Below, in pieces: positions 1-21,626 of a stretch of 27,383 bases of DNA. The notes under the pieces are model-generated. The model saw only the letters and a program-made list of their open reading frames with translations. It did not search any database and had not been told where the DNA came from. The DNA lies in NCBI GenBank assembly GCA_937888775.1, contig CALAQT010000270.1:1-27383 (forward strand), read 5' to 3'. Made by a program: the position numbers and the translations under genes. The DNA comes from an uncultured Actinomycetes bacterium (GTDB lineage: Bacteria > Actinomycetota > Thermoleophilia > Solirubrobacterales > Solirubrobacteraceae). How positions within the stretch are numbered: the first letter of the stretch is position 1; every line of letters begins with the position of its first letter.

Positions 1-369
1 GTGTTCTTCTTCGCGATGATCTTCGCGATCTCGATGGACTACACGATGTTCCTGCTCTCCTCCGCCAAGGAGCACTGGGACCACACCCACAAGGCCAAGG
101 ACGCGATGGTCAACGGGATCGCGCACTCAGGCCGCGTGATCTTCGCCGCCGCCGCGGTCATGGTCGCCGTGTTCTTCACGTTCGCGATCTCCGGCCCGCT
201 GCCGCCGAAGGAGATGGGGATCATCCTCGGCGTCGCCGTGCTGCTCGACGCGGCACTCGTCCGCCTGCTGCTGCTCCCCGTCCTGCTGCGCCTGATGGGC
301 ACCCGTGCCTGGTATCTGCCGCGCTGGGCGCGTCGCATCCTCCCCGACGTGCGCTTCGGGCACTCCTGA
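1..369 (+). CDS. MMPL/RND-family transporter, C-terminal fragment (5' end outside window)
   Basis: This is the last 122 residues of a large polytopic transporter of the MMPL (RND superfamily) type, which moves lipids or hydrophobic compounds across the inner membrane using the proton gradient. The segment SMDYTMFLLSSAKEH (residues 11-25) matches the family's conserved motif in which a membrane Asp-Tyr pair precedes a loop. Two hydrophobic stretches follow (about 46-64 and 72-99), ending in the typical LLDAALVRLLLLPVLLRL helix and a short basic cytoplasmic tail. The GTG at base 1 is only the window edge; family members are usually 700 residues or more, so the gene starts upstream. The next gene begins about 20 bases downstream on the same strand. 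Substrate cannot be inferred. Confidence 0.85.
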   Translation: MFFFAMIFAISMDYTMFLLSSAKEHWDHTHKAKDAMVNGIAHSGRVIFAAAAVMVAVFFTFAISGPLPPKEMGIILGVAVLLDAALVRLLLLPVLLRLMGTRAWYLPRWARRILPDVRFGHS

Positions 370-391
370 ATCCATGCACCGGCGAGAAGCC

Positions 392-967
392 ATGGAGTGG
401 GATGCGGGCAAGGCTCCCATGCTCGAGGCGCCGGAGCGCGAGCGCGACATGCCAGCCGGGCAGGTCGCCGACCTACTCGCGCTCACCGGCAGCGAGACGG
501 TCATCGACTACGGCGCGGGGACCGGACGGCTCGCGCTCGCCGTCGCAGAGCGACTCGGCCCGGAAGGCAGCGTCATCGCGATCGAGGACAGCAGCGAGAT
601 GTTCCAGCTGCTGTCCCAGCGGCTTGCCGACGTTCCCGGCGCCCAGCCGATGCTCACCGAGGGCGACCGTGTGCCGCTCCCCGACCAGCAGGCCGATCGG
701 ATCCTCGCCGTTGACGTCCTGCACCACATGCGTCCCGAAGCCCTGGCTGAGATGCGCCGCCTGCTCAGCCCCGAGGGCCAGCTGCTGCTGATCGACTGGG
801 ACCGCGGGCATCCCCGCGAAGACGGGCCGCCCGCGGATGTGCTGCTCACTGCGGACGGGGCCATCCAGGAGCTGGCCGCGGCCGGCCTGACGGCGCACCG
901 AGTGGGCGCCGCATTCGCTGACCGCTACACGCTGTGCGCGACCGCGACGCCCGGACCGGGCGGCTGA
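392..967 (+). CDS. class I SAM-dependent methyltransferase
   Basis: A 191-residue Rossmann-fold methyltransferase. The SAM-binding glycine loop VIDYGAGTGRLA is at residues 37-48, the acidic ribose-binding position (AIED) lies about 20 residues later, and AVDVLHHM (106-113) is the post-II/motif IV region of the Methyltransf_11/25 type. LLSPEGQLLLIDW (124-136) is the usual strand 5 region. The ATG at 392 is preceded by GGCGAGAAG; an in-frame ATG at 374 is an alternative that adds six residues. It sits between the MMPL tail and a rhodanese gene that begins only a few bases after its stop, so it is probably co-transcribed. The substrate is unknown; the neighbouring sulfur genes make a small thiol or metalloid compound conceivable but unproven. 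Confidence 0.85.
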   Translation: MEWDAGKAPMLEAPERERDMPAGQVADLLALTGSETVIDYGAGTGRLALAVAERLGPEGSVIAIEDSSEMFQLLSQRLADVPGAQPMLTEGDRVPLPDQQADRILAVDVLHHMRPEALAEMRRLLSPEGQLLLIDWDRGHPREDGPPADVLLTADGAIQELAAAGLTAHRVGAAFADRYTLCATATPGPGG

Positions 968-972
968 CCGTC

Positions 973-1347
973 GTGCTGTTCGCGCGCAAGATAGGGACGC
1001 TCCCGCCGACCGAGGCATGGGAGGCGCACCACCGCAACGAGCTGGTGCTCGTTGACGTCCGCGAGCGACCGGAGTGGCGATCCGGGGTGGTAACCGGCGC
1101 GCTACGGATCCCGCTGCACGAGCTCTCTCGCCGGATCGGCGAGCTACCGCGCGAGAAGACCGTCGCTTTCCTCTGCCGCTCAGGGCACCGCAGCCTGCTG
1201 GCCGCGCGCCAGGCGCGGCGAGGTGGCATCGACGTGGTGAGCATCAGCGGCGGCATGCTCGCCTGGGGCGACGCCGGCCTGCCCACCTCGACTCCGACCG
1301 CCACGGAAGATAGCCGGCCGCGCCACCACCATCGCTCCGCACGCTGA
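973..1347 (+). CDS. rhodanese-domain sulfurtransferase
   Basis: A 124-residue single rhodanese domain. LVLVDVRERPEW (residues 25-36) is the CH2A-like N-terminal signature and CRSGHRS (68-74) is the active-site loop, with Cys68 the expected persulfide carrier. The six-residue loop indicates a sulfurtransferase rather than a Cdc25-type phosphatase. GGMLAWGDAGLP (93-104) is the classical C-terminal signature. I chose the GTG at 973, just after the methyltransferase stop; a start at 934, overlapping that gene, is possible. The tail is His/Arg-rich (RPRHHHRSAR). It lies upstream of an OsmC-like gene and a second rhodanese, suggesting a persulfide or thiosulfate handling cluster in the cytoplasm. 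Confidence 0.85.
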   Translation: MLFARKIGTLPPTEAWEAHHRNELVLVDVRERPEWRSGVVTGALRIPLHELSRRIGELPREKTVAFLCRSGHRSLLAARQARRGGIDVVSISGGMLAWGDAGLPTSTPTATEDSRPRHHHRSAR

Positions 1348-1356
1348 AAGGAAGCC

Positions 1357-1887
1357 ATGCACAACGTCAATATCGAGGCACTCGAGCAGACCGTCGCGAA
1401 GGCCAAGCAGGACCCGGGTGTCATGGTCCAGAGCCTCGCCTTCGACGGGGATTGGCAGACCCGCCCGGGCGCGGCGCAGTTCCGTGCCGACATCCCCATG
1501 CCGGGCGGCGGGACGGTTGTATTCGAGGCTGACTACCCGCCGCCGATGGGCGGCTCCGGCGCGGCGCCCAACCCGCTCGCATATTGCTTCTGGGGCGGCC
1601 TGGCATGCTACGCCATGACATATGCCCAAGAGGCCGCGCGCGCGGGCACAGAGCTGCGGTCGCTGCACGCCCGAATCGAGACACAGCTCGACATGAGCCG
1701 CGCGCTCGGCGCAAGCGAGAACCCTCCGGTCGAGCGCATCGACTGGTACCTGGACGTCGACGCCGACGCTTCACCCGAACAGCTGGAGGCGATCAGGCAG
1801 ATTGCCGACGACCGATGCCCGGGGGCGTGGTGCCTGCGCAATCCGCTGGAGCTCCACACACACCTGAACGCCGCCGCGACGGCATGA
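1357..1887 (+). CDS. OsmC/Ohr-family thiol protein
   Basis: A 176-residue OsmC-like protein. The segment APNPLAYCFWGGLACYAMTYA (about residues 70-90) matches the family's central helix with a redox Cys, and a second cysteine cluster DDRCPGAWCL (151-160) matches the OsmC C-terminal Cys-Pro position. There are four cysteines in total (77, 84, 154, 159), two per site, more than the usual single pair. OsmC/Ohr proteins reduce organic hydroperoxides or act on sulfane-sulfur substrates. The ATG is preceded by a strong Shine-Dalgarno AAAGGAAG. The gene lies between two rhodaneses and its stop overlaps the next start (ATGA at 1884-1887), which supports translational coupling and a role with persulfides. 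Confidence 0.85.
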   Translation: MHNVNIEALEQTVAKAKQDPGVMVQSLAFDGDWQTRPGAAQFRADIPMPGGGTVVFEADYPPPMGGSGAAPNPLAYCFWGGLACYAMTYAQEAARAGTELRSLHARIETQLDMSRALGASENPPVERIDWYLDVDADASPEQLEAIRQIADDRCPGAWCLRNPLELHTHLNAAATA

Positions 1888-2354
1888 CCATGCCCGCCAC
1901 GCTCCACATAGAGCGGCTGGCGCGGCGCGAGGAGACGCTGATGGTGCCGCGGCCCGTGCCGAACCAGCCGGGTCTGCTTACGGTCGACGCCACGTGGGGC
2001 ACGATCTCGCCGATGCAGCTCTCCCCGGGAGTGCGCACTGTGGGGGAGCTCGAGGTGATCGAGCAGATCAAGGCCGGCCTGCAGCTCGTGGACACGCGCC
2101 TGGAGCACTTCTACCGGCAGGGCACCATTCCGAGTGCTCGCAACGTGCCCCGCGAGTTGATCACGGACTCGATTGGCAGCCTCGACCCTGACCTGGCCAC
2201 GGTCTTCTTCTGCAACGGCCCGCAGTGCGCCGCGACTCCGGCCTCCATCCGCGTGCTGCTCGCAGCCGGTTATCCAGCCGCGGCGATCCTCTACTACCGT
2301 GGCGGCATCCACGACTGGATGACGTTGGGGCTGCCCCTCGAGGTCCCGTCGTGA
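1884..2354 (+). CDS. rhodanese-domain protein with CNGPQC loop
   Basis: A 156-residue protein. After about 50 residues of non-rhodanese leader (Pro-rich around 21-30), the domain starts near LQLVDTRLEHFYRQGTIPSARNVP (67-89, the rhodanese CH2A region) and carries the active-site loop CNGPQC (110-115). Cys110 is the expected catalytic residue and a second Cys ends the loop. YYRGGIHDWMTLGLPLE (137-153) is the C-terminal signature. The start ATG overlaps the OsmC stop, so translation is probably coupled. No further gene follows on this strand for about 680 bases, so this is likely the end of the operon. Confidence 0.85.
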   Translation: MTMPATLHIERLARREETLMVPRPVPNQPGLLTVDATWGTISPMQLSPGVRTVGELEVIEQIKAGLQLVDTRLEHFYRQGTIPSARNVPRELITDSIGSLDPDLATVFFCNGPQCAATPASIRVLLAAGYPAAAILYYRGGIHDWMTLGLPLEVPS

Positions 2355-3031
2355 CTCGATGATGAAGCGGGCACGGGAGTGGGCGGAGGAGCCTACGACC
2401 TACCCGCCGCGAAGAACCGTGCCGTCGCCAAGCCCGGTCACGTAGCCGGGTCCTGCGCGGCTCCGAGGGGGATCCGCGCGTGCGGGAAGACCTCGGTCTC
2501 GCAACGCAACTACCGAGCGACCCGGAAGCGGGAGATGAGACACGCCCCCGGGTCGCCAGTCGCTCTCCCCCCACGCAACGGCGTGTACATCTCGTGCGAG
2601 GCAGTTGGCTGCTCAGCCAAGATACAACGGGGCCATCCGCTTGTACAGACCGCGTGCTACCCGGCGATGTGTCCTGCAGCGCTACCAGGTCCTGTTCTGC
2701 CAGCCGCCGCCTTCCGCGCCGGTTTTGCCAGTCGGGGTGCATTCGCGTTTCATCACTCCAGCAGAGGTCCCCTTGACCGTGAAGGAGTGACCTGCGGTCA
2801 TTGAGCTGGCGGTGACTTCGTAGCCATCACCGGATTCGATTTCTTTCGCCGCGCCGACGTAGGCGTTGTTGTTACCAGCGGCTGTCTGGATCGCGGGCTC
2901 GCATTGCCTGAGCACTCTCGGTTCGAGGCCCGCGTAGCTGTCCGCGTGGTCCGTCGGGTAGGTCGCCGCGTACGGTCGGGAGCCCGAGCCGTAGGACAAT
3001 CGCGAAGGCGAGCAGCGCATACAGTCTGCAC
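2355..3031. other. gene-poor stretch between the sulfur operon and the SCO1 gene
   Basis: No intact gene is recognised in these 677 bases. The only protein-like signal is the minus-strand pilin-like remnant listed separately (2682-3041). Reading frames on the plus strand (for example 2379-2804) have no family resemblance and look like chance openings in GC-rich DNA. No tRNA, terminator or insertion-sequence end was recognised. The part around 2740-2900 looks richer in A/T at synonymous positions than the flanking genes, consistent with decayed or foreign DNA. Confidence 0.5.
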
Positions 3032-3041
3032 GTGCCTCGGC
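2682..3041 (-). pseudogene. type IV pilin-like C-terminal remnant
   Basis: The minus-strand frame ending at the TAG at 2682-2684 encodes a C-terminal domain like that of actinobacterial type IV pilin-like proteins: YAGLEPRVLRQCEPAI, then NNNAYVGAAKEI, GYEVTASSM, HSFTVK and KRECTPTGKTGAEGGGW. The run of Tyr-x-Val-Thr-Ala-Ser-Ser, then Phe-Thr-Val, then Arg-x-Cys-Thr near the end is characteristic. What is missing is the N-terminal half: no prepilin peptidase site (GFTLxE) or hydrophobic helix is in frame, and a stop closes the frame just above 3041. The upstream DNA is occupied by the oppositely oriented SCO1 gene. I therefore read it as a truncated, decayed pilin gene, not an expressed protein. 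Confidence 0.5.
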
Positions 3042-3649
3042 TTATGACCCTCACAATCACCGCGCTCGCGTGCCTAGCGATAGTCGCGTGCGGCAGCTCC
3101 CAGACGCAGACGGGATCGATTGCTTCGCTGTCCAACCTGGACGTGAAACTCCCGGCGCCGGCACAGCTCCGCGCTGCGACTCCACAGTTCCAGCTCCGGA
3201 ACTCCACCGGCAAGCTCGTCCGCCTCTCCCGGTTCAGGGGAAAGGCAGTGCTGCTGACGTTCATCTACGACCACTGTCCCGACACCTGTCCGCTGATCGT
3301 CGCCAACCTGCACAACGCGCTTCTGAAGCTCGGCTCGGCGGCCAGCCGGCTACAGATCATCGCCGTCTCGGTCGACCCCACGGGCGATACTCCGGCCACC
3401 GTCAAGACCTTCCTCGCGGCGCACGAAATGACGGGCCGCATGGAGTACCTGCTCGGATCCCTCAGGGAACTGGCCCCAGTCTGGAAGGCCTACGGCGTGG
3501 AGGTCCAGGGCTCCCCGGCAACACGCGAGGTCGGCCACTCCGCCTTTCTCTACGGAATCACCGGGAGCGGGTCGGTGGCGGTGGTCTATCCACCGGGGTT
3601 CGACCCGGCATGGGTCGCGCACGACGCACCGCTGCTGGCCAGTCGCTGA
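3032..3649 (+). CDS. SCO1/SenC-family copper-binding lipoprotein
   Basis: A 205-residue SCO1/SenC protein, an extracytoplasmic thioredoxin-fold protein that delivers copper to the CuA site of cytochrome c oxidase or acts as a thiol/copper redox sensor. The signal peptide ends in a lipobox IVAC with lipid-anchor Cys20. The metal site is complete: CPDTC (Cys82 and Cys86) in FIYDHCPDTCP and the distal His169 in VGHSAFLY. AVSVDPTGDTP (111-121) is the family's conserved strand. The start is GTG 3032, with ATG 3044 as an alternative; neither has a strong ribosome-binding site. It stands alone on the plus strand, convergent with lgt, whose product would be required to lipidate it. Confidence 0.93.
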   Translation: MPRLMTLTITALACLAIVACGSSQTQTGSIASLSNLDVKLPAPAQLRAATPQFQLRNSTGKLVRLSRFRGKAVLLTFIYDHCPDTCPLIVANLHNALLKLGSAASRLQIIAVSVDPTGDTPATVKTFLAAHEMTGRMEYLLGSLRELAPVWKAYGVEVQGSPATREVGHSAFLYGITGSGSVAVVYPPGFDPAWVAHDAPLLASR

Positions 3650-5981: not shown

Positions 5982-6185
5982 TCACATCATCCGCATCATC
6001 ATCGCCATCATCACCGTGCACATGATCGCGATGAAGATGAACCCGGCGCCGACGACGCCAGTGGCGACGAGGACGATCGCGATCACGAGCATCGGGATGC
6101 AGCAGGCGATCATCATCCAGCTGTGACCGCCCTTGCCGCCGCCCTGCTCCTGCTGCGGGGTCTGTGGGGTGTCGAGATTGTTCAT
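5982..6185 (-). CDS. small Cys/Met-rich membrane protein
   Basis: A 67-residue protein. A polar Gln/Gly-rich N-terminus ends in HSWMM, followed by a hydrophobic helix containing ACCIPM (27-32) and a second very hydrophobic helix ending in CTVMMAMMMRMM. The arrangement His-Ser-Trp-Met-Met...Cys-Cys...Met-Met resembles small metal-associated membrane proteins (DUF2933-like), but I am not certain of the family. The ATG at 6185 overlaps the TGA of the DUF2892-like gene. The Cys pair and terminal Met cluster would suit Cu(I) binding in the membrane; this is inference. Confidence 0.7.
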   Translation of the reverse strand: MNNLDTPQTPQQEQGGGKGGHSWMMIACCIPMLVIAIVLVATGVVGAGFIFIAIMCTVMMAMMMRMM

Positions 6186-6421
6186 GCCGGGCCTCTCAGT
6201 GAAGACGGGACGTGGCCGAGGCGCTTGTAGAGCGGGCAGTGGCCGAGCGCCCCGGTGATGACCAGGTCGAGCCCGGCGAGGACGAGCAGCACCTCGAGCA
6301 CGATTGCCAGCGTTCCGGCCGCTGCTGCGAGCAGCACCACGCCGACGACGGCGCCGACCAAGCCCAGGAAGATGCGTGCGAGACGCTCCGGTGGGGTGAT
6401 ATTGATGGTTGGTCGCTTCAT
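6182..6421 (-). CDS. DUF2892/YgaP-like small membrane protein
   Basis: A 79-residue protein with a polar start (MKRPTINITPPERLARIFLG), two closely spaced hydrophobic helices (about 18-38 and 40-58) and the terminal motif GHCPLYKRLG (61-70), matching the DUF2892 inner-membrane family in which a conserved Cys-Pro lies after the second helix. In some proteins this domain is fused to rhodaneses. The ATG at 6421 has a consensus ribosome-binding site (AAAGGAGCGATC). It is the first gene after the conserved promoter at 6444-6499, so it probably heads a six-gene operon running to lgt. A shortened relative lies at 22592-22708. Confidence 0.8.
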   Translation of the reverse strand: MKRPTINITPPERLARIFLGLVGAVVGVVLLAAAAGTLAIVLEVLLVLAGLDLVITGALGHCPLYKRLGHVPSSLRGPA

Positions 6422-6443: not shown

Positions 6444-6499
6444 TCAGTATCGCCGCGCGCAATGAAGATGGTGTGAAGGAGACCCGCCCATCCGGTGAA
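6444..6499 (-). promoter_or_regulatory. conserved promoter/operator, copy A: TTCA(C) direct repeats plus CGATACTGA
   Basis: Read on the minus strand: TTCAC, 15 bases, CCTTCAC, 4 bases, TCTTCA, 10 bases, CGATACTGA. The plus-strand TGAA cores start at 6463, 6474 and 6496, so spacings are 11 and 22 bp (one and two helical turns). The inferred -10 is GATACT (6451-6446), which puts the transcript start about 18 bases before the ATG at 6421, just upstream of its ribosome-binding site. Direct repeats in 11-bp phase upstream of a -10 with no good -35 are typical of sites activated by OmpR/PhoB-family regulators. Confidence 0.75.
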
Positions 6500-6534
6500 C
6501 ACCAATCGGGGCAGCGATGGCCGAGTCGGGAGCC

Positions 6535-6978
6535 TTAGTGGTGGTGGTCATAGTGTTCGCTGCCCGCCGCGTTGGAGGGCACGTTCTGGCCGGGCGTGGA
6601 CTTGCCCGTGCTGCTCGCTCCGCTCATCGCGGGACCGATGACAAAGGTCGAGATCGAGAAGGCGACCGCGAACAAGGCGAGCAGCGCGCTCGGGAGGCGC
6701 CAGTTGCCGCAACGGCGGTGCACGCGCAGCAGGAAGGGGATTGACGCGAGGAAGCCGAGCGCGCCGAACAGCAGCGCTCCCGCGGTCCCGGCGAGCAATG
6801 CCGCGCCCGCGAGCAGACCGGCGTGGTGCAGAACATGGGGTGCGAGTCCCAGCACGGCGGCCACCGCTGTGGATCGCAGCGCCGACGCGCGCTCGCGAAC
6901 GGTGAGCGGCGTCACCGGCTCTCCCGCGTCCGGGCTAGTGGGGGCCGTCACGGGCTTGGTGTCGCTGTTCGTGAACAT
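6535..6978 (-). CDS. membrane protein with His-rich C-terminus
   Basis: A 147-residue integral membrane protein: a polar N-terminus of about 35 residues, then hydrophobic helices around 38-57, 58-75 and 98-117, with a basic loop (LRVHRRCGNWR, 84-94) between helices. LGLAPHVLHHAGLL (43-56) places three histidines in the first helix and the protein ends in SEHYDHHH, a plausible metal-binding tail. The ATG at 6978 follows the end of the frameshifted methyltransferase by 13 bases; longer in-frame starts would run into that gene. I do not recognise a named family. Location after a cupredoxin gene in the same operon suggests a part in metal handling. Confidence 0.65.
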   Translation of the reverse strand: MFTNSDTKPVTAPTSPDAGEPVTPLTVRERASALRSTAVAAVLGLAPHVLHHAGLLAGAALLAGTAGALLFGALGFLASIPFLLRVHRRCGNWRLPSALLALFAVAFSISTFVIGPAMSGASSTGKSTPGQNVPSNAAGSEHYDHHH

Positions 6979-6991
6979 GCGGTCCGCCACA

Positions 6992-7683
6992 TCAGGGTCG
7001 TTGGGGGCGCGCGCCCACCTTGGCTGACCCGTGAGCTTGGTCGGCGGGAACCACGCTACCGCTGCGACGCCGCGCCGGAATGAAGCGGGGTGCTCGGGCC
7101 GCATACGTGTCCCACAGCCCGCCGAAGTGTGCTTTGACCTCGCGTTCCTCGCGGCTTGACAGGCGCCGGTAGGCGAGTGCCAGCACGGGGAACATCACAA
7201 GCGTCGGGATCGTCGGCCACTGCACCAGGAAGCCGAGCATGATCAGCAGGAGCCCGGAATACTGGGGGTGGCGGATGCGCGCATAGGGGCCCCGCCCACC
7301 GCGAGCTCGCCGGCCTGTTGGGCGGGCAGCAGCACACGCCAGGCGGCGCTGATGAGCAAGAAGCCGCCGAGGATCAGCACGTAGCTCGCGAGGTGGAAGG
7401 GGCTGAGGTGTGGGTCGCCCTGCCAGCCGATCAGGTCGTTCCACAGGTGTCCCGAGCTGTGGCCGAGGCCGAGCTTTGACCCGAGCGCGCCGGAGAGCAG
7501 GTAGATGGTCAGCGGGTAGCCGTACATCTCGCTGAACAGCGCGACGATGAACGCCGCGAAGCCTCCGAGCGCGCGCCAGTCGCGACGGTTGGCGGGGTGG
7601 AAGAAGCTGACGGCGAAGACGATCACCAGTAACGAGTCAAAGCCGGCGAGTGCCCAAAGCCCGTAGCCGTAGTCGCTGCTCAT
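6992..7683 (-). pseudogene. isoprenylcysteine carboxyl methyltransferase-like membrane protein, frameshifted
   Basis: Two overlapping frames together give one protein of about 230 residues. The N-terminal part (starting at ATG 7683) has helices and SEMYGYPLTIYLLSG; the C-terminal part has the PEMT/ICMT signature GPYARIRHPQYSGLLLIMLG, then SREEREVKAHFG and a final APRFIP. The first frame runs past the join into ASATPSIPGSC and stops at 7243. The break lies in the run GGGGCCCCGCCC at 7286-7297: one extra base there would read AVGGGPYARIRHPQ without interruption. So one G (minus strand) has been lost, by mutation or by sequencing error in a homopolymer. ICMT-like enzymes methylate thiols, amines or metalloid compounds at the membrane; the substrate here is unknown. 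The start overlaps the cupredoxin stop. Confidence 0.8.
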
Positions 7684-8099
7684 GCCGCCACCGCCTCACC
7701 GGTACGGGCGGCAGCATGCGCCTCGCCCGGATCGACAATCAGATTGCCGTGCAGCATGTTCATGCCGCAGCAGAAGCTGTGCGCACCCGGCTCGCTCGCC
7801 GGCAGGTCGACCGCGACCTCCTTGAACGGCGGGAGCCCGCAGCTGATCCCATAGTCGGGGAACACGACTCGCTCCGAGCACGGTGCCGTCTCCTCGCGGC
7901 GGAACAGGAGCCGGATCGGACGGTTCGGATCGACGTGGACCTCGTGGGGCTGATAGCCCTCGTTCACGCGGATACGCCGAACCTGTGCAGTGTCCTGGGC
8001 ACTCTCGGCCGGCGCTGCGCGGCGCGATGTGAATCGGCCCCATACGAACAAGCCGGCGAACAGGACTGCCGCGGAGATCAGCGACTCAAGCAGTCCCAT
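7680..8099 (-). CDS. membrane-anchored cupredoxin-like protein, paralogue 1
   Basis: A 139-residue protein with an N-terminal membrane anchor (about 5-21) and a cupredoxin_1-type domain (about 40-123). Key residues: Cys74 in RREETAPCSERVVFPD and the terminal loop FCCGMNMLHG (109-118) with Cys110/111, Met113, Met115 and His117, the expected copper ligand region. The conserved Arg-Arg-Glu-Glu-Thr and Phe-Pro-Asp strands match the protein at 18511-18888. Compared with that paralogue it has an additional Cys87, a doubled Cys and His117 in the loop, and a longer tail with HAAARTG. The ATG at 8099 has GGAGGCGAGG ahead and overlaps the preceding small gene by 14 bases. Probable role: extracytoplasmic copper binding or transfer. 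Confidence 0.85.
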   Translation of the reverse strand: MGLLESLISAAVLFAGLFVWGRFTSRRAAPAESAQDTAQVRRIRVNEGYQPHEVHVDPNRPIRLLFRREETAPCSERVVFPDYGISCGLPPFKEVAVDLPASEPGAHSFCCGMNMLHGNLIVDPGEAHAAARTGEAVAA

Positions 8100-8232
8100 C
8101 CTCGCCTCCTCCCGGCGTCGGCTGGTCCCTGCCGCCGCGGCCGCCGCCGCAGCCGCCGTGACCGCCGGGGCGCATGTGCATGAACAGCATCCACCCGATC
8201 AGAACCAGAAAGATCAGAGTTGAAAAGCTCAT
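8086..8232 (-). CDS. small Gly/His-rich membrane peptide
   Basis: A 48-residue product: one hydrophobic helix (MSFSTLIFLVLIGWMLFMHM), then HMRPGGHGGCGGGRGG and an acidic Gly-rich end. The MHM...GGHGGC segment is a plausible metal-binding patch right after the helix. The ATG at 8232 has a consensus AGGAGG ribosome-binding site; an in-frame ATG pair at 8271/8268 lies on top of the inferred -10 and transcript start and is unlikely to be used. It is the first gene after promoter copy B and overlaps the cupredoxin start by 14 bases. Confidence 0.7.
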   Translation of the reverse strand: MSFSTLIFLVLIGWMLFMHMRPGGHGGCGGGRGGRDQPTPGGGEDGTA

Positions 8233-8270
8233 TGCTGCCTCCTGAAACGGTCGACGATTGACTTGCATCA

Positions 8271-8326
8271 TCAGGATCGACCCGGGCCGTGAAGACGCCG
8301 TGAAGGCGGCCCGCCGATCCCGTGAA
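8271..8326 (-). promoter_or_regulatory. conserved promoter/operator, copy B: TTCAC direct repeats plus CGATCCTGA
   Basis: Same layout as copies A and C: minus-strand TTCAC, 15 bases, CCTTCAC, 4 bases, TCTTCA, 10 bases, CGATCCTGA. TGAA cores start at plus positions 8290, 8301 and 8323 (spacings 11 and 22). The sequence between the outer repeats is also close to copy A (a shared CCCGCC and ATCC on the plus strand). It lies about 40-95 bases upstream of the start at 8232 and downstream of the histidine kinase gene, so it gives the 8232-6535 genes their own promoter. Confidence 0.75.
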
Positions 8327-8358
8327 CGTCCCGGAGGCCCTAGCGGCCAGCGAGTCGG

Positions 8359-9699
8359 TCAGGCCGGTGTGGGCAGCGCGGGTAGGCTGACCGAGAAGCG
8401 TGAGCCCTCGCCGGGCGTGCTGTGCACGTCAATGCGGCCGTCGTGTGCGGCGACGAGCTCACGCACGATCGCCAAGCCGATTCCGGCGCCGCCGCTCTTG
8501 CGTGCTCGCGACTGCTCGCCGCGCCAGAAGCGCTCAAAGACGAACGGGAGATCCTCACCCGCGATCCCGATTCCCGTGTCTGTGACGTCCAGCACCGCCT
8601 CGCTGCCGCGCCGGCTCAGCGCGACGGTCGCCTTCCCGCCCGTATCGGTGTAGCGAAGTGCGTTGGAGAGCAGGTTGTCGATGATCTGCGCCAGCCTTCG
8701 GGGGTCGCCCAGCACCTCGGCCGGCTCGATCTGCTGCTCGAGCGCGATCGCCTTCGCGTCGAAGCGCTCGCGATAGACCGTGACACGCTCGGCGAGGAGT
8801 GTGGCGAGATCGACGGTCCGCTTCTCGAGCGTCAGGCCTGGCTGCTCGGCCTCTGCGAGCTTGCCGAGGTCATCGACGAGCTGCGCCAGGCGCAACGCCT
8901 CGTCGTGGATCGCGTCGAGGTTCGCGCGCTCGTCTCTCAGGACGCCGTCCTGGGCGGCCTCGATCCGCGAGACGATGCCCGCTAGTGGCGTTCGCAGCTC
9001 GTGGGCGATGTCCGCGGCGGCGGCGCGACGGATCTGCTCCTCGTGCTCGAGTGTCTCGGCCAGCCGGTTGAACGCGCGTCCGAGCGTGGCCGTCTCCGGC
9101 GCGCCCGCCGGCTGAACGCGCGCCTCGAGGTCGCCATGCTCGATGCGCCGCGCCGCGTCGGTGAGCTGGCGCAGCGGCCTGGCGAGCGTCATTGCCAGCA
9201 GCAGCGCGGCCAGGACCCCTGCGGCCAGCGCCGCCAGGGCGGCGATCAGGTGGAGCGTGTTCAGCCGCTGGCGGAGCTGGCGGTCCTCGCCGGTGAGCAC
9301 CTGGCCCTGCAGCGGCGTGAGCACGACGCTGCCCGCTTGGTGGCCGGCCGCGAACACGCCGGCGCGCGCCAGCGCCGCAGGGGAGTGAGCGACCGAGCCG
9401 CCCAGCAGCCGCCCGCCCTGGTCATAGACGGCCACCCGGTAGCCGCTGATCCCGGCGAGATGCCCGAGCTCGGCGAGCGTCTGCACGCTCCACTGGTCGT
9501 GCTGCTGCACGTAGAGTCCTGCGGCGAGCTGCGCGGTGTGGCCGGCCGCGGCGTGCAGCCGTTCGCGTGCGGCCTGGTCCAGACGGCTGTTCAGGCCGCT
9601 GTCGGCGAGCACCGTCGCAAGCGCCACCGACAGCAGCGCAACGGCAGCCAGCGCGAGCGCGAGGCGGCCGCGCAAGCCGACCCGCCTCCAGGCGCTCAT
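8359..9699 (-). CDS. two-component sensor histidine kinase
   Basis: A 446-residue HAMP-type sensor kinase. Helix 1 is about 12-33 and helix 2 about 151-172, enclosing an extracytoplasmic sensor of about 115 residues (containing HTAQLAAGLYVQQHDQW). The HAMP domain (about 173-225) is followed by the H-box ADIAHELRTPL with phospho-acceptor His233, the N-box NLLSNALRYTD, the G1 box DTGIGI (374-379), the F-box VFERFWRGE and the G2 box GAGIGLAIVREL. All catalytic motifs are intact. It resembles BaeS/CusS-like sensors in layout. Its ATG overlaps the stop of the response regulator, so the pair is translationally coupled. The sensor sequence does not reveal the ligand; neighbouring genes suggest copper or envelope thiol stress. 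Confidence 0.93.
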   Translation of the reverse strand: MSAWRRVGLRGRLALALAAVALLSVALATVLADSGLNSRLDQAARERLHAAAGHTAQLAAGLYVQQHDQWSVQTLAELGHLAGISGYRVAVYDQGGRLLGGSVAHSPAALARAGVFAAGHQAGSVVLTPLQGQVLTGEDRQLRQRLNTLHLIAALAALAAGVLAALLLAMTLARPLRQLTDAARRIEHGDLEARVQPAGAPETATLGRAFNRLAETLEHEEQIRRAAAADIAHELRTPLAGIVSRIEAAQDGVLRDERANLDAIHDEALRLAQLVDDLGKLAEAEQPGLTLEKRTVDLATLLAERVTVYRERFDAKAIALEQQIEPAEVLGDPRRLAQIIDNLLSNALRYTDTGGKATVALSRRGSEAVLDVTDTGIGIAGEDLPFVFERFWRGEQSRARKSGGAGIGLAIVRELVAAHDGRIDVHSTPGEGSRFSVSLPALPTPA

Positions 9700-10394
9700 T
9701 CGCGCTTGGCGGCGAGGCGGTAGCCGACGCCCTGCACCGTCTGGACGTAGCGCGGGTGGCGGTGGTCGGGCTCGATCTTGCGGCGCAGGTTCTTGACGTG
9801 CGCGTCGATCGTGCGCTCATAGCCCTCGAAGTCGTGGCCCTGGACGCGGTTGATCAGCTCGAAGCGGGAGTAGGCCCGTCCCGGATACTGGGCAAGAGCA
9901 CACAGCAGCTTGTACTCGCTCGCGGTCAGCTCGACCGGCTCGCCGCCGAGCAGCACCTCGTGGCGCACGCTGTCGATCTGCAGGCGTCCCTCATCGAAGC
10001 TTTGCTGCTCTACCAGCGGCATCTCCCCGCCGCTGCTGCGGCGCAGGATCGCCTTGATCCTCGCCACCAGCTCGCGAGGGCTGAACGGCTTGACGAGGTA
10101 GTCGTCGGCGCCTAGGGACAGTCCCGCGACGCGCTGATCCTCGCTGGACTTCGCGGTCAGCATCAGGATCGGCACGTCGGAGCGGCTGCGCACCTCCCTG
10201 CAGATCTCCTCGCCCGAGACATCGGGAAGCATCAGGTCGAGCACGATCAGCGCCGGGCGCTTGCTCAGCGCGAGCTCGAGCCCCTCGCGGCCGTCGCTGG
10301 CGCTGTAGACGATGAAGCCGTCGCGCTCGAGGTACGCACGAACGACCTCGTGGATCGAGGGCTCGTCGTCGACGATGAGGATCCGCTCGTTCAT
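9696..10394 (-). CDS. OmpR-family response regulator
   Basis: A 232-residue response regulator. Receiver domain residues 1-118 have the acidic pocket (Asp9, Asp10), phospho-acceptor Asp53 in VLDLMLPD, Thr80 and Lys102 (KPFSPREL). The C-terminal winged helix (about 130-230) has the OmpR/PhoB hallmarks: LTASEYKLLCALAQYPG, SRFELI, TIDAHVKNLRRKIE and the final YVQTVQGVGYRL. The ATG at 10394 is chosen because AGGTGA lies five bases before it; the GTG at 10403 is inside that site. Members bind direct repeats in tandem, which matches the 11-bp-phased TTCA(C) boxes at 6444, 8271 and 12432. It is the obvious candidate regulator of those boxes, though no sequence feature proves it. Confidence 0.93.
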   Translation of the reverse strand: MNERILIVDDEPSIHEVVRAYLERDGFIVYSASDGREGLELALSKRPALIVLDLMLPDVSGEEICREVRSRSDVPILMLTAKSSEDQRVAGLSLGADDYLVKPFSPRELVARIKAILRRSSGGEMPLVEQQSFDEGRLQIDSVRHEVLLGGEPVELTASEYKLLCALAQYPGRAYSRFELINRVQGHDFEGYERTIDAHVKNLRRKIEPDHRHPRYVQTVQGVGYRLAAKRE

Positions 10395-10498
10395 GCTCGT
10401 CACCTCGCGCGCTCAACCGTCCGACAGGCCCGCCGAACGTGCCCGTGGAGGGTATCCCGCGGTCGTGGCCGGCGTTGCTCGACTCGCCCGCACCGCCG

Positions 10499-10765
10499 TT
10501 AGGCCGCCGAGTTTGCTTGCGCCGCATCGAGAGTCCGCCGCAGGCGCTTGGCCGACAGCCGGCCGTAGGCGAGGACATTGCCGTCAGGCGCGAGCAGCAC
10601 AGGACGCAGCGGCGGGACCGTCAAGGCCAGGCGTCGCCCCTCCGGCGTGTCGGCTTGGACCTCGCACCAGTCGAGCTGCCGCTCAAGGACGAGAGCGTCG
10701 AGGACCGCCCGGGCGTGGTCGCAGAGATGGCATTCGGATGAAGTGAGCAACACAAGCCGGCCCAT
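10499..10765 (-). CDS. glutaredoxin-like thiol protein (DUF836 type)
   Basis: An 88-residue thioredoxin-fold protein with the redox motif CHLC (Cys12-Cys15) in TSSECHLCDHA, the usual DUF836/glutaredoxin-like N-terminus, and the cis-Pro loop VPPLRPVLL. No signal peptide, so it is cytoplasmic. The ATG at 10765 overlaps the stop of the thioredoxin-like gene, so the products are made together. It is likely an electron donor or thiol-disulfide exchanger for the CcdA/thioredoxin pair upstream, as inferred from the operon. A gap of 104 bases separates it from the response regulator gene; I see no clear terminator in it, so the regulator genes may belong to the same transcript. Confidence 0.82.
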   Translation of the reverse strand: MGRLVLLTSSECHLCDHARAVLDALVLERQLDWCEVQADTPEGRRLALTVPPLRPVLLAPDGNVLAYGRLSAKRLRRTLDAAQANSAA

Positions 10766-11433
10766 CAGGCCGCGCCCATGTCGCTCATCAGCTGCGCGGG
10801 CGCCACATACATTTCCGGATATGCGCGCTGCCAGAGCACCTTCGCTTGCGCGTCGAGAAGCACGAAGGCATGGCCGTCCTGACTGGGGTGTTCCATCCCG
10901 CCGCGGCCGAGCATCCCATAGGCGCGCGACATCTGCGTGTCGCTGTCGGCCAGCAGCGGTGTTCTCAGCCGGTACTGCGCGGCGACTTCGGAGAGCACGC
11001 TCGCCGGGTCGGTGGTGATCGACACCAGCTGGATGCCGGCGGCCCGCAGGGCGGCCGAGCTCTGCAGGTCGGCGGCCTGCACGAGACAGGCCTGGCAGGA
11101 GGCGCCCTCGGAGAAGAACAGCAGCGTCTTGTGACCGGCAAGGCTCCCGAGCGTCACCTCGCGCCCTGAGACGACATCACGCACGCGGAAGGAAGGCGCC
11201 GTGGCACCTGTGGCAAGCGAACGCGGGGCTCCCGTCGCGGCTGCGCCTGCGAGGCTCGCGCCTGTTCCGCCCCCCGTGCGGAGCACCGCGAGGCCACCGA
11301 CCGCGACTGCGATGACCAGCGCGCTGAGCGCGGTGTTGCGGACGCGGCGGCGGTGCTCGGCGCGCTCACGTGCGGCCTGTGCGGCGAGCCGCTGCGCGCG
11401 GCGCGCCTGCTTGTCGGGGCTTCGGCTAGCCAT
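10765..11433 (-). CDS. membrane-anchored thioredoxin/AhpC-TSA-like protein
   Basis: A 222-residue protein: a strongly basic, Ala/Arg-rich cytoplasmic start with coiled-coil character (1-32), one transmembrane helix (about 34-51), a linker, and an AhpC/TSA-thioredoxin domain (about 72-222). The active site is CQAC (Cys113, Cys116) in FFSEGASCQACLVQA; TTDPASVLSEV and the HAFVLLDAQAKVLW strand are family features. Topology places the domain outside the membrane, as in TlpA/ResA-like proteins that receive electrons from CcdA. The start is ATG 11433 (ATG 11436 adjacent) after AAAGGGAG. It overlaps the 3' end of the CcdA-like gene, which supports a functional pair. Confidence 0.87.
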   Translation of the reverse strand: MASRSPDKQARRAQRLAAQAARERAEHRRRVRNTALSALVIAVAVGGLAVLRTGGGTGASLAGAAATGAPRSLATGATAPSFRVRDVVSGREVTLGSLAGHKTLLFFSEGASCQACLVQAADLQSSAALRAAGIQLVSITTDPASVLSEVAAQYRLRTPLLADSDTQMSRAYGMLGRGGMEHPSQDGHAFVLLDAQAKVLWQRAYPEMYVAPAQLMSDMGAA

Positions 11434-12316
11434 CATGGGACTCCCTTTCGCGATCGGGGTCGGTGCTGAGAAGAGGTTGAGCAAGGACGGCTCTCGGGCC
11501 GCGCCGGAGCGCCCGCACCGTCAACGCTCCCGTGACGGCGAGCGCGAGCAGCACGAGTGCCCAGCCCGCGCCGAGGGAGATGTGCTCGACGAGCCAGTTC
11601 GCGCGCTGGCTGAGCCAGAGACCGAGAGCCCTCTGAACACCGGGGGCCTGCGTGGCCTTGCCGAGCAGCGCAAGCACGATCATCTGGACGCCGACCGCGA
11701 AGAACATCAGCGAGCTGATCAGCCGCAGGCGGGTCGTGCCGAGACGGCCGATGCTCACGTGCGGGTCACGCAAACGGCCGCGAAGCCGCCCGACGCCGAG
11801 GCCGATGAGCAGCAACGGGGTCACCAGCCCAAACAGGTAGATGCCACCCATCACCACGCCGCCGAGCCATGAGCCCGAGACTCCGGCGATCGCGAGAGCG
11901 CCGACGAGCACCGGCGCGCAGCACGACGTCACCGCCCCCGAGATAAGGCCCATCGAGTAGATGCCGGCCAGCCCGCCGCGATCGGAGGCGGCGAGGGCGG
12001 GGGGGTTCCACATCCAGCCGTTGAGCGTCGCCCAGCCGACGAGCAGCATCACCGCGCCACCGGCGAGAAACAGTACACCGTGCTGCGCGGAGATGACCGA
12101 CGCCAGGCCCGCCACGCCGATCGTCAAGGGCCAGACGATCGTCGCTACACCGGCGATGTAGACGGCGCTGAGCAGGACCATCCGCCAGCGGCGAGCGCCG
12201 GCGACGCTCGCCAGGTAGCTGGGCAGCATCACGAACGAGCAGCACGGCGCGAAGAACGCCACGAGGCCGGCCATGTAGGCGGCGAGCGCTGAGCCGGCGA
12301 GGAGAGCCTGACCCAT
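11426..12316 (-). CDS. CcdA/DsbD-like transmembrane thiol-electron transporter
   Basis: A 296-residue polytopic protein of the CcdA/DsbD family, which passes reducing power from cytoplasmic thioredoxin to extracytoplasmic thiol proteins. Two equivalent helices carry the expected cysteines: FFAPCCSFVMLPSY (21-34) and GAVTSCCAPVLVGA (127-140). Here each site has a Cys-Cys pair (25/26 and 132/133) where the classical family has one Cys-Pro each. About seven to eight helices are visible, and the tail is basic and polar. The ATG at 12316 lies two bases after the stop of a 35-codon upstream reading frame. The transcript probably begins at promoter copy C. Confidence 0.85.
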   Translation of the reverse strand: MGQALLAGSALAAYMAGLVAFFAPCCSFVMLPSYLASVAGARRWRMVLLSAVYIAGVATIVWPLTIGVAGLASVISAQHGVLFLAGGAVMLLVGWATLNGWMWNPPALAASDRGGLAGIYSMGLISGAVTSCCAPVLVGALAIAGVSGSWLGGVVMGGIYLFGLVTPLLLIGLGVGRLRGRLRDPHVSIGRLGTTRLRLISSLMFFAVGVQMIVLALLGKATQAPGVQRALGLWLSQRANWLVEHISLGAGWALVLLALAVTGALTVRALRRGPRAVLAQPLLSTDPDRERESHDG

Positions 12317-12318
12317 CG

Positions 12319-12426
12319 CTAGACCTCCGCTCGGGCAGAGCTCGGGCTCGTCGACGGTCCGCCCACTGCCAGTGAGCAGCCCTGGAGGCCTGGGACCCCG
12401 TGCTGTGCGATCGATACCTTCCTCAT
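12319..12426 (-). CDS. possible 35-codon leaderless upstream reading frame
   Basis: An ATG at 12426 opens a 35-residue frame (MRKVSIAQHGVPGLQGC at its start, Ser/Pro-rich end) that stops at 12319, two bases before the CcdA-like ATG. The ATG lies about eight bases downstream of the inferred -10 (GATATT, 12439-12434), close to where transcription should begin, so this could be a leaderless leader peptide coupled to the next gene. No homologue is recognised; it may also be plain 5' untranslated sequence. Confidence 0.35.
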   Translation of the reverse strand: MRKVSIAQHGVPGLQGCSLAVGGPSTSPSSARAEV

Positions 12427-12431
12427 CAAGG

Positions 12432-12487
12432 TCAATATCGGCGCGAGATTTGAAGATCGCGTGAAGGCGACGGGTGCTTCTCGTGAA
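12432..12487 (-). promoter_or_regulatory. conserved promoter/operator, copy C: TTCAC direct repeats plus CGATATTGA
   Basis: Third copy of the composite site: minus-strand TTCAC, 15 bases, CCTTCAC, 4 bases, TCTTCA, 10 bases, CGATATTGA. TGAA cores start at plus positions 12451, 12462 and 12484 (spacings 11 and 22). The -10 GATATT is the best of the three. The first repeat lies about 20 bases beyond the end of the ABC permease gene, so the site separates the copper-ATPase operon from the CcdA/two-component operon. If the response regulator binds here it would autoregulate. Confidence 0.75.
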
Positions 12488-16425: not shown

Positions 16426-18495
16426 CTAGACCCCCGTCGGTTCGGACCGGACGAGCACCTTCGCGTCTGCCGTCGGCGGCGCGGATAGCGCCTCATCGCG
16501 GTGTGTCGGCTGAAGGACGCCAGCGGCCTGATAGGCGTCGGGCTCATCCAGCGTCTCGTGCGCCAGCAGCGCAGCCGCGAGGCTGTCGAGCTGCTCGCGG
16601 TGCTCGCTGAGCGTTCGCAGCGCGCGCTCGTAAGACTCGTCGGTGATCCGCTTGACCTCCTCGTCGATCAGCTCGCGTGTACGCTCGGAGGTCGCGCTGT
16701 CAAAGCCTCCAAATGGCAGCTGCTGCTCGCCCGGTCCGGGTAGCACCGAGACGCGGCCGATCTTCTCCGACATGCCCCAGCGCCCGACCATTTGCCGGGC
16801 GAGGCGCGTTGCCTGCTCGAGGTCGGACTCGGCGCCGGTGGTGATCTCGCCGTAGATCAGCTCCTCTGCGGCGCTGCCGCCGAGCGCCCCGACGATCCGC
16901 CCGCAGAGGTAGCTCTGGCTGTAGCCGTAGCGGTCTGCATCTGGGCTCTGGAAGGTGACGCCGAGAGCGTGTCCGCGGGGGATGATCGAGACCTTGCGCA
17001 CGGGGTCGGCTCCCGGCTCGAGCATCCCCAGCAGCGCGTGCCCGGACTCGTGGTAGGCGGTACGCCTGCGGTCCGCGTCACTGAGCACGATTCGCCTGGC
17101 GGTGCCGAGCACGATCTTCTCCATCGCATCGCTGAAGTCGGCGCGCAGCACCTTCTCGTGATCCAGGCGGGCTGCGGTCAGCGCCGCCTCGTTGACGAGG
17201 TTGCGCAGGTCGGCGCCGACCATGCCCGGGGTGCTGCCCGCGAGCGCGCCCAGGTCGACGTCGTCCCCGAGCGGCACGTGGCGGGTGTGGACCTCCAGGA
17301 TCTTGCGTCGGCCGGCCTGGTCGGGCGGGCTGACCGCGACGCGACGGTCAAAGCGTCCGGGGCGTAGCAGCGCGGGGTCGAGGATCTCAGGGCGGTTGGT
17401 GGCCGCGACGACGATCACGCCCTCGGTTCCGCTGAATCCGTCCATCTCGGTCAGGATCTGGTTGAGCGTCTGCTCGCGCTCGTCGTTGCTGCCTCCCATT
17501 GCGCCCGCCCCGCGTACCCGCCCGATCGCGTCGAGCTCGTCGATGAAGATGATCGCCGGCGCGTCTTTCTTGGCCTGCTCGAACAGGTCCCGTACGCGGC
17601 TCGCGCCGACGCCGACGATCATCTCGACGAACTCCGATGCGGACAATGAGAAGAACGGCACGTCTGCCTCGCCGGCGACCGCCCGCGCCAGGAGTGTCTT
17701 GCCCGTCCCGGGCAGCCCGGTCAGCAGGACACCCCTGGGAATCATTCCGCCGAGACGCCGGTAGCGGTCGGGATCCTTCAGGAACCCGACGACCTCCGCG
17801 AGCTCGTCGGTCGCCTCGTCGATCCCGGCGACGTCGGCGAAGCTCGTCCGCTGTGATGAGGCGTCATAGCGCTTCGCCTTGGACTTCCCGAGACCGCCGA
17901 GCATTCCACCGCCTGCGCTCTTTGCCATGCGGCGCATCATCAGGACGAACAGCCCGACCAGGAGGATCGTGGGTCCGAAGCCGAGCAGCAGCGTCGAGAT
18001 GAGCGAGCTGCCCTTGTCGACCGGTTTTGCGTTGATCGTCACGTTCTTGCTAAGCAGCAGGCCAAGCAGCTGGTCATCGGCAAACGCCGGGCGCTCGGTC
18101 TTGAAGAGGTGCGTCACCTGCCCGCTCCTGCCCGCGGGATAGGTGATGGAGTGCCGGAAGCTGAAGTCGATCGTCTCGCCCTGCGAGCTGACCTCGGCGA
18201 CGTTGCCGGCCTGCGCCTGTGAGCGGAAGTAGCTGTAGGGGACGGTCAGCCGGGGATGCCCGCCCGAGGGGACAGACAGCGCGATGACCCAGTTGACCGT
18301 GAGCAGCGCGACCAGTACCAGCCAGAACACGTTTCCCCCGGGCGGGCGCCGCATGCCACGCGATGCTGCTGGAGTTGAATGCTCACCACGGGCTCCCTCC
18401 ACGCGCCACGGCGGCCGGGGGCGCGGGGGCGGCGTGTCAGCCTGGCGCTGCTGCGGCTCCGGTGAGGAGGTCGCCTGATCGGGCTCGGGACTCAT
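16426..18495 (-). CDS. ftsH: ATP-dependent zinc metalloprotease FtsH
   Basis: A 689-residue FtsH: two N-terminal helices (about 56-75 and 163-187) flanking an extracytoplasmic domain, an AAA module and a zinc protease. Seen motifs: Walker A GLPGTGKT (260-267), Walker [12 protein letters not shown] (315-325), the second region of homology [20 protein letters not shown], and the zinc site HESGH (482-486, usually HEAGH) with the downstream acidic ligand in [12 protein letters not shown]. The Leu in GLPGTGKT, where most FtsH proteins have Pro, is unusual but should keep the P-loop. The N-terminus is extended by about 50 Pro-rich residues. FtsH degrades misassembled membrane proteins. Being 15 bases after the cupredoxin gene it probably belongs to the csoR operon, perhaps as a second, stress-specific FtsH. 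Confidence 0.95.
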
Positions 18496-18510: not shown

Positions 18511-18884
18511 TCAGCGCACGACGATCTTGCCGCGGAGCATGCCCATGCCACAGGTGAACTCATACTCGCCGGGCTGCTCGGGCGTGAACTCGACTGGGAT
18601 CGTCTCGCCCTCCGGGAGCTCGGCCTGGCGGTGAAAGTCAGGCAGCAGCACTTTCTCCGAGCAGGCGGCCGTCTCTTCGCGACGGAAGTTCAGGCGCACC
18701 GGCCTGCCGTGCTCGACGCTGATCACGTCCGGGGTGTAGGCGCCCTTGACGAGGATCAACGTCTCCTGGAAGCCGGATGAGCTCAGCGCGGCCTTCACGC
18801 CCCCGCCGCGCGGTGCCCAGAAGAACCACGCGATCAGTGCGATCAAGCCCGCGCCGGCGACGGTGACGATCAGCTCGGCCGCGC

Positions 18885-18888
<4 letters not shown>
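18511..18888 (-). CDS. membrane-anchored cupredoxin-like protein, paralogue 2
   Basis: A 125-residue protein with an N-terminal membrane helix (about 5-24) and a cupredoxin_1-type domain (about 38-125). [17 protein letters not shown] (69-85) with Cys76 and the loop [14 protein letters not shown] (111-124) with Cys113, Met115 and Met117 are the likely copper ligands. It shares these strands with the protein at 7680-8099. The ATG at 18888 overlaps the copA stop, so the protein is made together with the Cu(I) pump. A reasonable role, by inference, is to accept or sequester copper delivered by CopA outside the membrane. Confidence 0.88.
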
Positions 18889-21208
<2,320 letters not shown>

Positions 21209-21212
<4 letters not shown>

Positions 21213-21502
21213 CGTTTCACCAGCCGGCCGACCGCGCCCATCAGCTCGGTGACCTGCTCGTCGGGGTCCGACGATGTTGCCCCGTCGTTCTGCATGCAGA
21301 CGCGCGCGTGGCCGTCGAGCAGGCCCAGGGCGATCTTCTCGAGCGCCGCCTGGACCGCCGAGATCTGCGTCAAGACGTCGATGCAGTAGCGGTCCTCCTC
21401 GACCATCCGTGCGAGACCTCGCACCTGCCCCTCGACCCGCGTCAGGCGGCCAAGGAGCTGCTGCTTGGAAGCGGTGTAGCCGCGTGTCGGTTGCGTGCTC
21501 AT
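21209..21502 (-). CDS. csoR: CsoR-type copper-sensing repressor
   Basis: A 97-residue all-helical repressor of the CsoR/RcnR family. The Cu(I) ligand set Cys40-His65-Cys69 is intact: [17 protein letters not shown] and [10 protein letters not shown]. This Cys-His-Cys pattern distinguishes CsoR from persulfide sensors (Cys-Cys only) and from RcnR/FrmR. The N-terminal helix [18 protein letters not shown] is the family's DNA-facing helix. The ATG at 21502 is taken because the operator lies immediately upstream; longer frames would start inside or beyond it. Cu(I) binding should release the operator and induce csoR-copA and following genes. Confidence 0.95.
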
Positions 21503-21517
21503 GGCCACCAGTCTACA

Positions 21518-21534
21518 ATACCCCCTGGGGGTAT
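21518..21534. promoter_or_regulatory. CsoR-type operator, perfect palindrome
   Basis: ATACCCCC-T-GGGGGTAT is a perfect 8-1-8 inverted repeat 15 bases upstream of the csoR ATG. It matches the known G-tract/A-T flanked operators of CsoR/RcnR repressors. Sequences just downstream on the minus strand (TATTGT, TAGACT) could serve as a -10, so a bound repressor would block the promoter. The site lies 92 bases before the divergent cyclase-YHS gene and could affect it too. Confidence 0.85.
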
Positions 21535-21626
21535 TTGCCGCAGACGTGGACCGTAGAACGCCGCGGCCTGCCTCCACGAATAGGGGCGACTGCAGAACGC
21601 CCAGCCACTACGCTCGCCCCACCGCG

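Follow-up and report, generated by a model that had tools for sequence, protein, structure and literature searches.

On the minus strand of a 27,383-nucleotide stretch of DNA from an uncultured actinomycete of the Solirubrobacteraceae (contig CALAQT010000270.1; this whole stretch is called the window here), three near-identical sequences each lie upstream of a different set of genes, which raises the question of what reads them. An earlier note on this DNA described them as a composite promoter/operator with three cores, and proposed that they were bound by a response regulator (RR) encoded between them. Here, the sites are described as four-unit operators with a -10 hexamer at a fixed distance, and the linked RR is considered to be their probable regulator.

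The pattern TTCAC-N15-CCTTCAC-N4-TCTTCA was matched exactly three times in the window, always on the minus strand (6463-6499, 8290-8326 and 12451-12487), and the chance expectation from 100 dinucleotide shuffles of the window was zero. The motif CGATnnTGA followed 10 nt downstream in all three sites (CGATACTGA, CGATCCTGA and CGATATTGA). The architecture reported in the earlier note was therefore reproduced, and its TGAA positions and spacings of 11 and 22 were right, being read directly at the first site and fixed by the pattern coordinates at the other two. Its description as a three-core composite was incomplete, as the 22-bp gap hides one extra 11-bp unit, making the element a four-unit direct repeat. 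In a profile of 23 sites, from which one further 1-mismatch site (L147, minus strand, 503) was excluded by hand, the 11-bp units start at columns 1, 12, 23 and 34. Units 1, 3 and 4 read TTCA(C), with TTCAC at columns 1 and 23 and TTCA at column 34, and most of these TTCA cores are preceded by C, not G. In the window, unit 2 is degenerate, and it diverges most in operator 3. It is mostly GGCAGA in close relatives (C14 in 23/23 and A15 in 18/23 profile sites), and TTCAC, TTCAT or TACAC in some distant genomes (G285, G279, G444 and G318). The unit-2 counts were taken from the 23-site profile because a separate set of 57 sites had been chosen partly on unit 2.

A -10 hexamer (xAnnnT) is located exactly 11 nt past the last TTCA. 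Its two defining bases, A50 and T54, were present in all 15 exact-core sites of the window and of the genomes with a close RR ortholog, and these sites had been selected without any -10 criterion. At other offsets within columns 41-68, the same pair was found in none or one of the 15 sites, except at 56/60, where it was found in five. Both bases were invariant in the 23 profile sites (23/24 if the excluded L147 site, which lacks them, is counted), and were found in only 3/9 exact sites of genomes without a close ortholog. In a sigma-70 -10 hexamer, an A and a T at these places are the two key bases. If transcription starts approximately 7 nt past the -10, units 3 and 4 would cover the -35 region in the fashion of a PhoB box. 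The phoA promoter of E. coli has an equal distance between its last core and the -10.

The placement of the sites ahead of genes, which had been claimed for the window, was also seen more widely. Among the 38 distinct sites of the window and the RR-ortholog genomes, 27 had an open reading frame start preceded by a Shine-Dalgarno sequence within 120 nt of the -10, compared with 431 out of 4000 random positions. At operator 1, the downstream ATG is 24 nt past the -10. A common place for the element was just behind the kinase gene, at times overlapping its end, followed by a small peptide or cupredoxin gene; in the window, operator 2 comes just after the kinase gene, and a comparable place is occupied behind the RR-kinase genes of relatives.

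The distribution of the element was determined in two samples: a phylum sample of 396 actinobacterial genomes, 74 of which contained RR relatives in a protein search with a threshold of 1e-70, and a class sample of 299 genomes around the best RR match, 15 of which had close RR orthologs (1e-95). Some of the named relatives of the window RR were Solirubrobacteraceae and Thermoleophilia metagenome bins, and "Thermoleophilia-like" is used here as an inferred label for the searched genomes. Gene calls in these genomes came from simple scripts, and start positions may be wrong. The exact core TTCAC-N17-TTCAC-N6-TTCA gave 21 matches in 16 of the 299 class genomes (reversed control, 2 in 2), and it was present in 7/15 RR-ortholog genomes versus 9/284 others (p 1.5e-6). 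When the -10 positions were added, 19 matches were found in 16 of the 396 phylum genomes and none with the reversed control, with the element in 12/74 genomes carrying RR relatives versus 4/322 others (p 8e-7). The genome-wide scan that the earlier note had called for was run on the 15 RR-ortholog genomes with a longer pattern of 54 columns, allowing up to 3 mismatches; it detected 35 sites in 13 of them, and no match to the reversed pattern. Of these sites, 25 were within 20 kb of the RR, on the same contig, and all eight sites of G178 (2.6 Mb) were found within one stretch of approximately 28 kb around the RR. Judged by its sequence, the element is real, widely conserved and of the PHO-box type.

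The element was also tied to the RR by its position relative to RR genes. It was found 0.9-1.75 kb past the RR end, on the kinase side, in 19/27 loci of the RR clade versus 4/105 other RR loci (Fisher p 3.6e-13, a descriptive value; reversed-sequence control 0/27 and 1/105), when up to 3 mismatches were allowed and the -10 was included. This interval was taken as "behind the kinase", and the presence of a kinase was confirmed by homology in only part of the loci. The 27 loci include L016 (Paenibacillus, no site) and exclude the window; L233 and L228 stem from near relatives, yet were counted separately, and the clade rows L160, L161 and L232, with some other rows, were dropped as they had less than 300 nt behind the RR. 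A contig search with generic receiver peptides yielded distant RRs, used mainly as a control set. The four other RR loci with a site were L238, which has the helix type of the clade, L033, L042 and the second RR of L149. At L042, a gammaproteobacterial RR locus, phased CACG/TTCACG/TGACACG repeats are located approximately 1.4 kb behind the RR, with a -10 at an equal distance and 3 mismatches.

In a tree, 28 rows carried the label for a nearby site, and 25 of them fell into one group of 51 RRs (support 98). The tree was made by a quick method with SH-aLRT support only, omitting L001, L160 and L232, and labels were assigned by a rule of its own, those of L262 and L264 by hand. The recognition helix Y-E-R-[TA]-x-D-x-H-x-K-N-x-R was conserved throughout the clade, with L016 lacking only the Y. 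The same helix was found in more divergent RRs of the site-bearing genomes G001, G005, G038, G167, G188, G198 and G399; the best RR of G038, G167, G188, G198 and G399 was 47-58% identical. By sequence comparison, the element goes with the RR clade and, for the most part, with the recognition helix of that clade. The 5000 best plasmid records, at which the search ended, contained no kin of the RR with at least 60% identity. Clade linkage, the helix and the proximity of sites to the RR all argue for the earlier proposal, and we consider it likely that the linked RR is the regulator of the three sites.

Several observations weigh against this assignment. Two RR-ortholog genomes, G500 and G512, had no site at up to 3 mismatches. 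Nine of the 16 site-bearing genomes of the class scan had no close RR ortholog, and 6 of the 9 exact sites in such genomes lack the -10, so some of these sites are due to chance. No site was found behind the kinase in 8/27 clade loci, those of G400, G402, G418, G480 and G013 belonging to genomes with sites elsewhere, nor behind the kinase of Coriobacteriia-like RRs (L240-L246), whose helix is YERTIDSHVKN (A to S); this label rests on L002, a Coriobacteriaceae record grouping there in the tree. In G285 (L126), a four-unit site with a -10 and TTCAC in unit 2 follows genes for a kinase and for an RR with a different type of helix, so that a sister regulator may use an identical operator type. In G444 (L127), a four-unit site with a -10 and TTCAT in unit 2 has no adjoining RR or kinase. 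When two RR loci were read per genome, other helices were seen in G130, G285, G435, G444, G481, G560, G599 and G408, and the site-bearing G459 had no RR at 1e-45. The clade boundary of 262 bits was also chosen post hoc and the sequences are related, which is why the p values are descriptive. Upstream of the G444 site is an exo/endonuclease-phosphatase family gene; downstream of it are genes for a secreted His-rich protein and for small SHOCT-like proteins.

The architecture is that of a known operator type. As described in excerpts of the cited papers, PHO boxes are made of two 11-nt units with species-specific cores (PMC4415409), the direct repeat unit of Streptomyces PhoP is GtTCAccnnnn and the PolR site is GTTCACnnnnnGTTCaC (PMC6754071), and the pitH2 operator has four units, two of them weaker (PMC7866108). 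Like the boxes of Streptomyces PhoP and E. coli PhoB (PMC6754071, PMC4415409), the element consists of 11-nt direct repeat units arranged head to tail, with a TTCAC/TGTCA-like core, and would place units over the -35 region at a constant distance to the -10. Like pitH2 (PMC7866108), its four units are unequally conserved. It differs from a PHO box in that most of its TTCA cores follow a C instead of a G, in the separate consensus of its unit 2 in close relatives, and in its identified targets, which are envelope copper/redox and other genes, with no phosphate genes.

This likeness raises the possibility that the sites are ordinary PHO boxes read by the phosphate regulator of the genome (PhoB/PhoP/RegX3), with the neighbouring RR being incidental. 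TTCAC at 11-bp steps is near to the PhoP unit and the PolR site (PMC6754071, excerpts), and one pstS promoter region (G480, L251) has two TTCAC units in 11-bp phase. However, when 700 nt upstream of the match were scanned at 11 pstS-type loci from 9 genomes (6/11 above the family cut-off), none contained the composite at up to 3 mismatches, the best having 4. In addition, no phosphate gene was found among the families assigned to representative downstream genes, and the sites follow the RR clade and a helix with KN, compared with KR in M. tuberculosis RegX3. We therefore consider this explanation unlikely, and a phosphate regulon was rejected as the principal reading because the pstS-type loci lack the composite. 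As a few of these loci (L251, L252 and L259) carry in-phase repeats like GTAACA or GTTCACA, the two kinds of boxes are close kin.

Another unlinked regulator, or an alternative sigma factor for which the repeats are a long promoter, could account for elements in genomes without the RR clade, where the -10 was retained in three of nine, and for the isolated site of G444. Four repeats in 11-bp phase suit a regulator and not a sigma factor, though, while the A and T of the -10 are placed as in a sigma-70 hexamer and the element is linked to RR genes, making this a very improbable alternative. A promoter of the extracytoplasmic function sigma type was rejected, as the TCTTCA-CGAT spacing is too short and the A/T pattern is sigma-70-like. 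The presence of three near-identical sites inside approximately 6 kb could also reflect repeat copies or a recent promoter duplication without a common regulator. This is scarcely credible, and was rejected as an artefact, since the flanks outside the element are only partly alike and the element recurs at corresponding places in G600 and other genomes with different variable bases.

Regulation by the linked RR would then work as follows. Each site would be an activator-dependent promoter of the PhoB/PHO-box kind, at which the RR, phosphorylated by the kinase, binds four 11-bp units head to tail, unit 2 being weak. The RR on the last two units, over the -35 region, would replace a -35 element and recruit RNA polymerase to the -10, whose distance of 11 nt from the last TTCA is fixed, activating rather than repressing transcription. 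The regulon would comprise three operons, of presumed extent, encoding the cupredoxin, the CcdA/redoxin proteins, the YgaP-like protein and small membrane proteins rich in His/Met/Cys; the genes of the regulator itself are probably included.

Autoregulation, which had also been suggested, is supported by gene order. In the window, a site is upstream of the CcdA-redoxin-glutaredoxin-RR-kinase genes; in G600 (L146) there is an equivalent gene order with a site upstream of the CcdA homolog, matching the place of operator 3 (RR 84% identical), and sites were found 517, 785 and approximately 880 nt upstream of a same-strand RR in G005, G001 and G399, respectively. The gap of approximately 104 nt between the glutaredoxin gene and the RR in the window counts against it.

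For the signal, the earlier note pointed to copper and thiols. The targets are consistent with envelope copper/redox handling, whereas no conserved Cys or conserved Met cluster was found in the sensor region when 26 kinases were aligned, so copper sensing could not be read from the kinase sequence. One sensor His was conserved in the window kinase and 11 close relatives in this alignment. The best NCBIfam model for the kinase was BaeS/SmeS (NF012163), at 288.1 bits against a cut-off of 500. A copper/thiol signal is plausible.

Table 1. Operators, regulatory genes and downstream genes in the window.
Feature	Position	Strand	Evidence or remarks
Promoter/operator 3	12434..12487	-	Layout as operator 1; -10 GATATT at 12439-12434; profile score 44.0
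CcdA/DsbD-type membrane protein	11426..12316	-	First after operator 3; PF02683, 26.3 bits (cut-off 27.1)
AhpC/TSA-type thioredoxin-like protein	10765..11436	-	PF00578
Glutaredoxin-like protein (DUF836)	10499..10765	-	PF05768, 25.2 bits (cut-off 26)
RR, RegX3/PhoB-like, proposed binder	9696..10394	-	Pfam Response_reg + Trans_reg_C; helix GYERTIDAHVKNLRRKIE
Sensor histidine kinase (HAMP-HisKA-HATPase)	8359..9699	-	Presumed partner of the RR
Promoter/operator 2	8273..8326	-	Layout as operator 1; -10 GATCCT at 8278-8273; profile score 56.8
Small Gly/His-rich peptide	8086..8232	-	First after operator 2; alignment
Cupredoxin-like protein	7680..8099	-	PF13473
Membrane protein	7243..7683	-	No family above cut-off; homologs behind sites in L147, L148, L150, L153
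Membrane protein	6535..7104	-	No family; homologs close to sites in relatives
Promoter/operator 1	6446..6499	-	Exact pattern; profile score 54.9; units 6499-6489, 6488-6478 (degenerate), 6477-6467, 6466-6456; -10 GATACT at 6451-6446
YgaP-like membrane protein	6182..6421	-	First after operator 1; PF11127; homologs behind sites in L149, L152, L213
Small His/Met/Cys-rich membrane peptide	5982..6185	-	ACC-x-PM core; no Pfam match

Some of the genes downstream of the sites (Table 1) have counterparts in other genomes, among them two recurring kinds of tiny membrane peptides. Peptides resembling the small Gly/His-rich peptide were seen behind sites in four relatives (L148, L149, L151 and L155), the likeness being weak and visual. 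The ACC-x-PM peptide family has seven aligned members (window, L147, L149, L150, L151, L152 and L213), one of them with ACS; the short form has 40-43 aa and the long form 67-87 aa. A Pfam scan of representative downstream genes, some second or third behind the site, identified cupredoxin, YgaP-like, multicopper oxidase, Fer4_5 iron-sulphur membrane protein, LGT and Usp families, as well as DUF2202, DUF2680, methyltransferase, DoxX, polyketide-cyclase-like, FAD-binding and VTT-domain proteins and, at 3-mismatch sites, a P-type ATPase. In close relatives, the targets are most naturally read as serving envelope copper/redox handling; the genes behind sites in distant genomes are more varied.

A second copper cluster in the window (18511-21577, minus strand), encoding a cupredoxin-like protein, a CopA-type P-type ATPase and a small protein that we take to be CsoR-like, has no matching site in the window. 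In G472 (L155), a cupredoxin, an ATPase and a homolog of the small protein are encoded in a single run behind a site. An FtsH protease gene (16426-18495, minus strand; above the NCBIfam cut-off) is beside the copper genes, flanked on its other side by what is presumably a UbiB/ABC1-like kinase gene. The sulfur/copper theme continues on the plus strand at 1-3649, where the translations resemble an MMPL-like end, a methyltransferase, and rhodanese-like, OsmC-like and SCO1-like proteins.

Among characterised systems, SenX3-RegX3 of mycobacteria contains RegX3 (2oqr), the solved RR that scored best by sequence with the window RR. CopRS/CusRS and BaeRS likewise place envelope or copper genes under two-component control, in copper response and envelope stress respectively, but the window RR and kinase are well under the curated cut-offs of both; the RR scored 167.1 bits with the heavy-metal RR model TIGR01387 (cztR/silR/copR; cut-off 279.2). 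With the PhoB equivalog TIGR02154, the RR scored 225.2 bits (cut-off 296.2). YclJ of Bacillus subtilis was reportedly shown by Ogura in 2010 to use TTCATA-type 11-bp direct repeats. It belongs to a different phylum and has a different regulon, given as ykcBC and yngABC in excerpts of PMC7961091. According to excerpts of PMC12802291, Streptomyces CutRS is another two-component system of the actinobacterial envelope, and its sensor is redox-related; a CutR-like site was rejected, as the CutR motif given there, TAWATAAA, differs from the element.

Among the matches listed in searches of open-licence full-text papers, none described a regulon for this RR and kinase, and while the architecture is that of a PHO-box operator, the regulon appears to be undescribed. 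We tentatively suggest, as a reading that is quite possible but less secure than the RR assignment, that several groups of one phylum share an undescribed two-component system (helix YERTxDAHxKN) that carries its operator along, immediately after the kinase gene. In Thermoleophilia-like bacteria it would control a compact stimulon for copper/redox functions of the envelope, in which two or more kinds of unnamed tiny His/Met/Cys-rich membrane peptides take part, and unit 2, changed to GGCAGA, would serve as an inbuilt weak subsite.

To summarise, with a sequence rule of four phased units and a fixed -10, the likely regulon of an uncharacterised two-component system can be found in several groups of a poorly cultivated phylum, and both scans that included the -10 gave no reversed-pattern match. 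As the likely regulator is now named, together with its targets and its recognition helix, binding, the signal and the role of the tiny peptides are open to direct tests.

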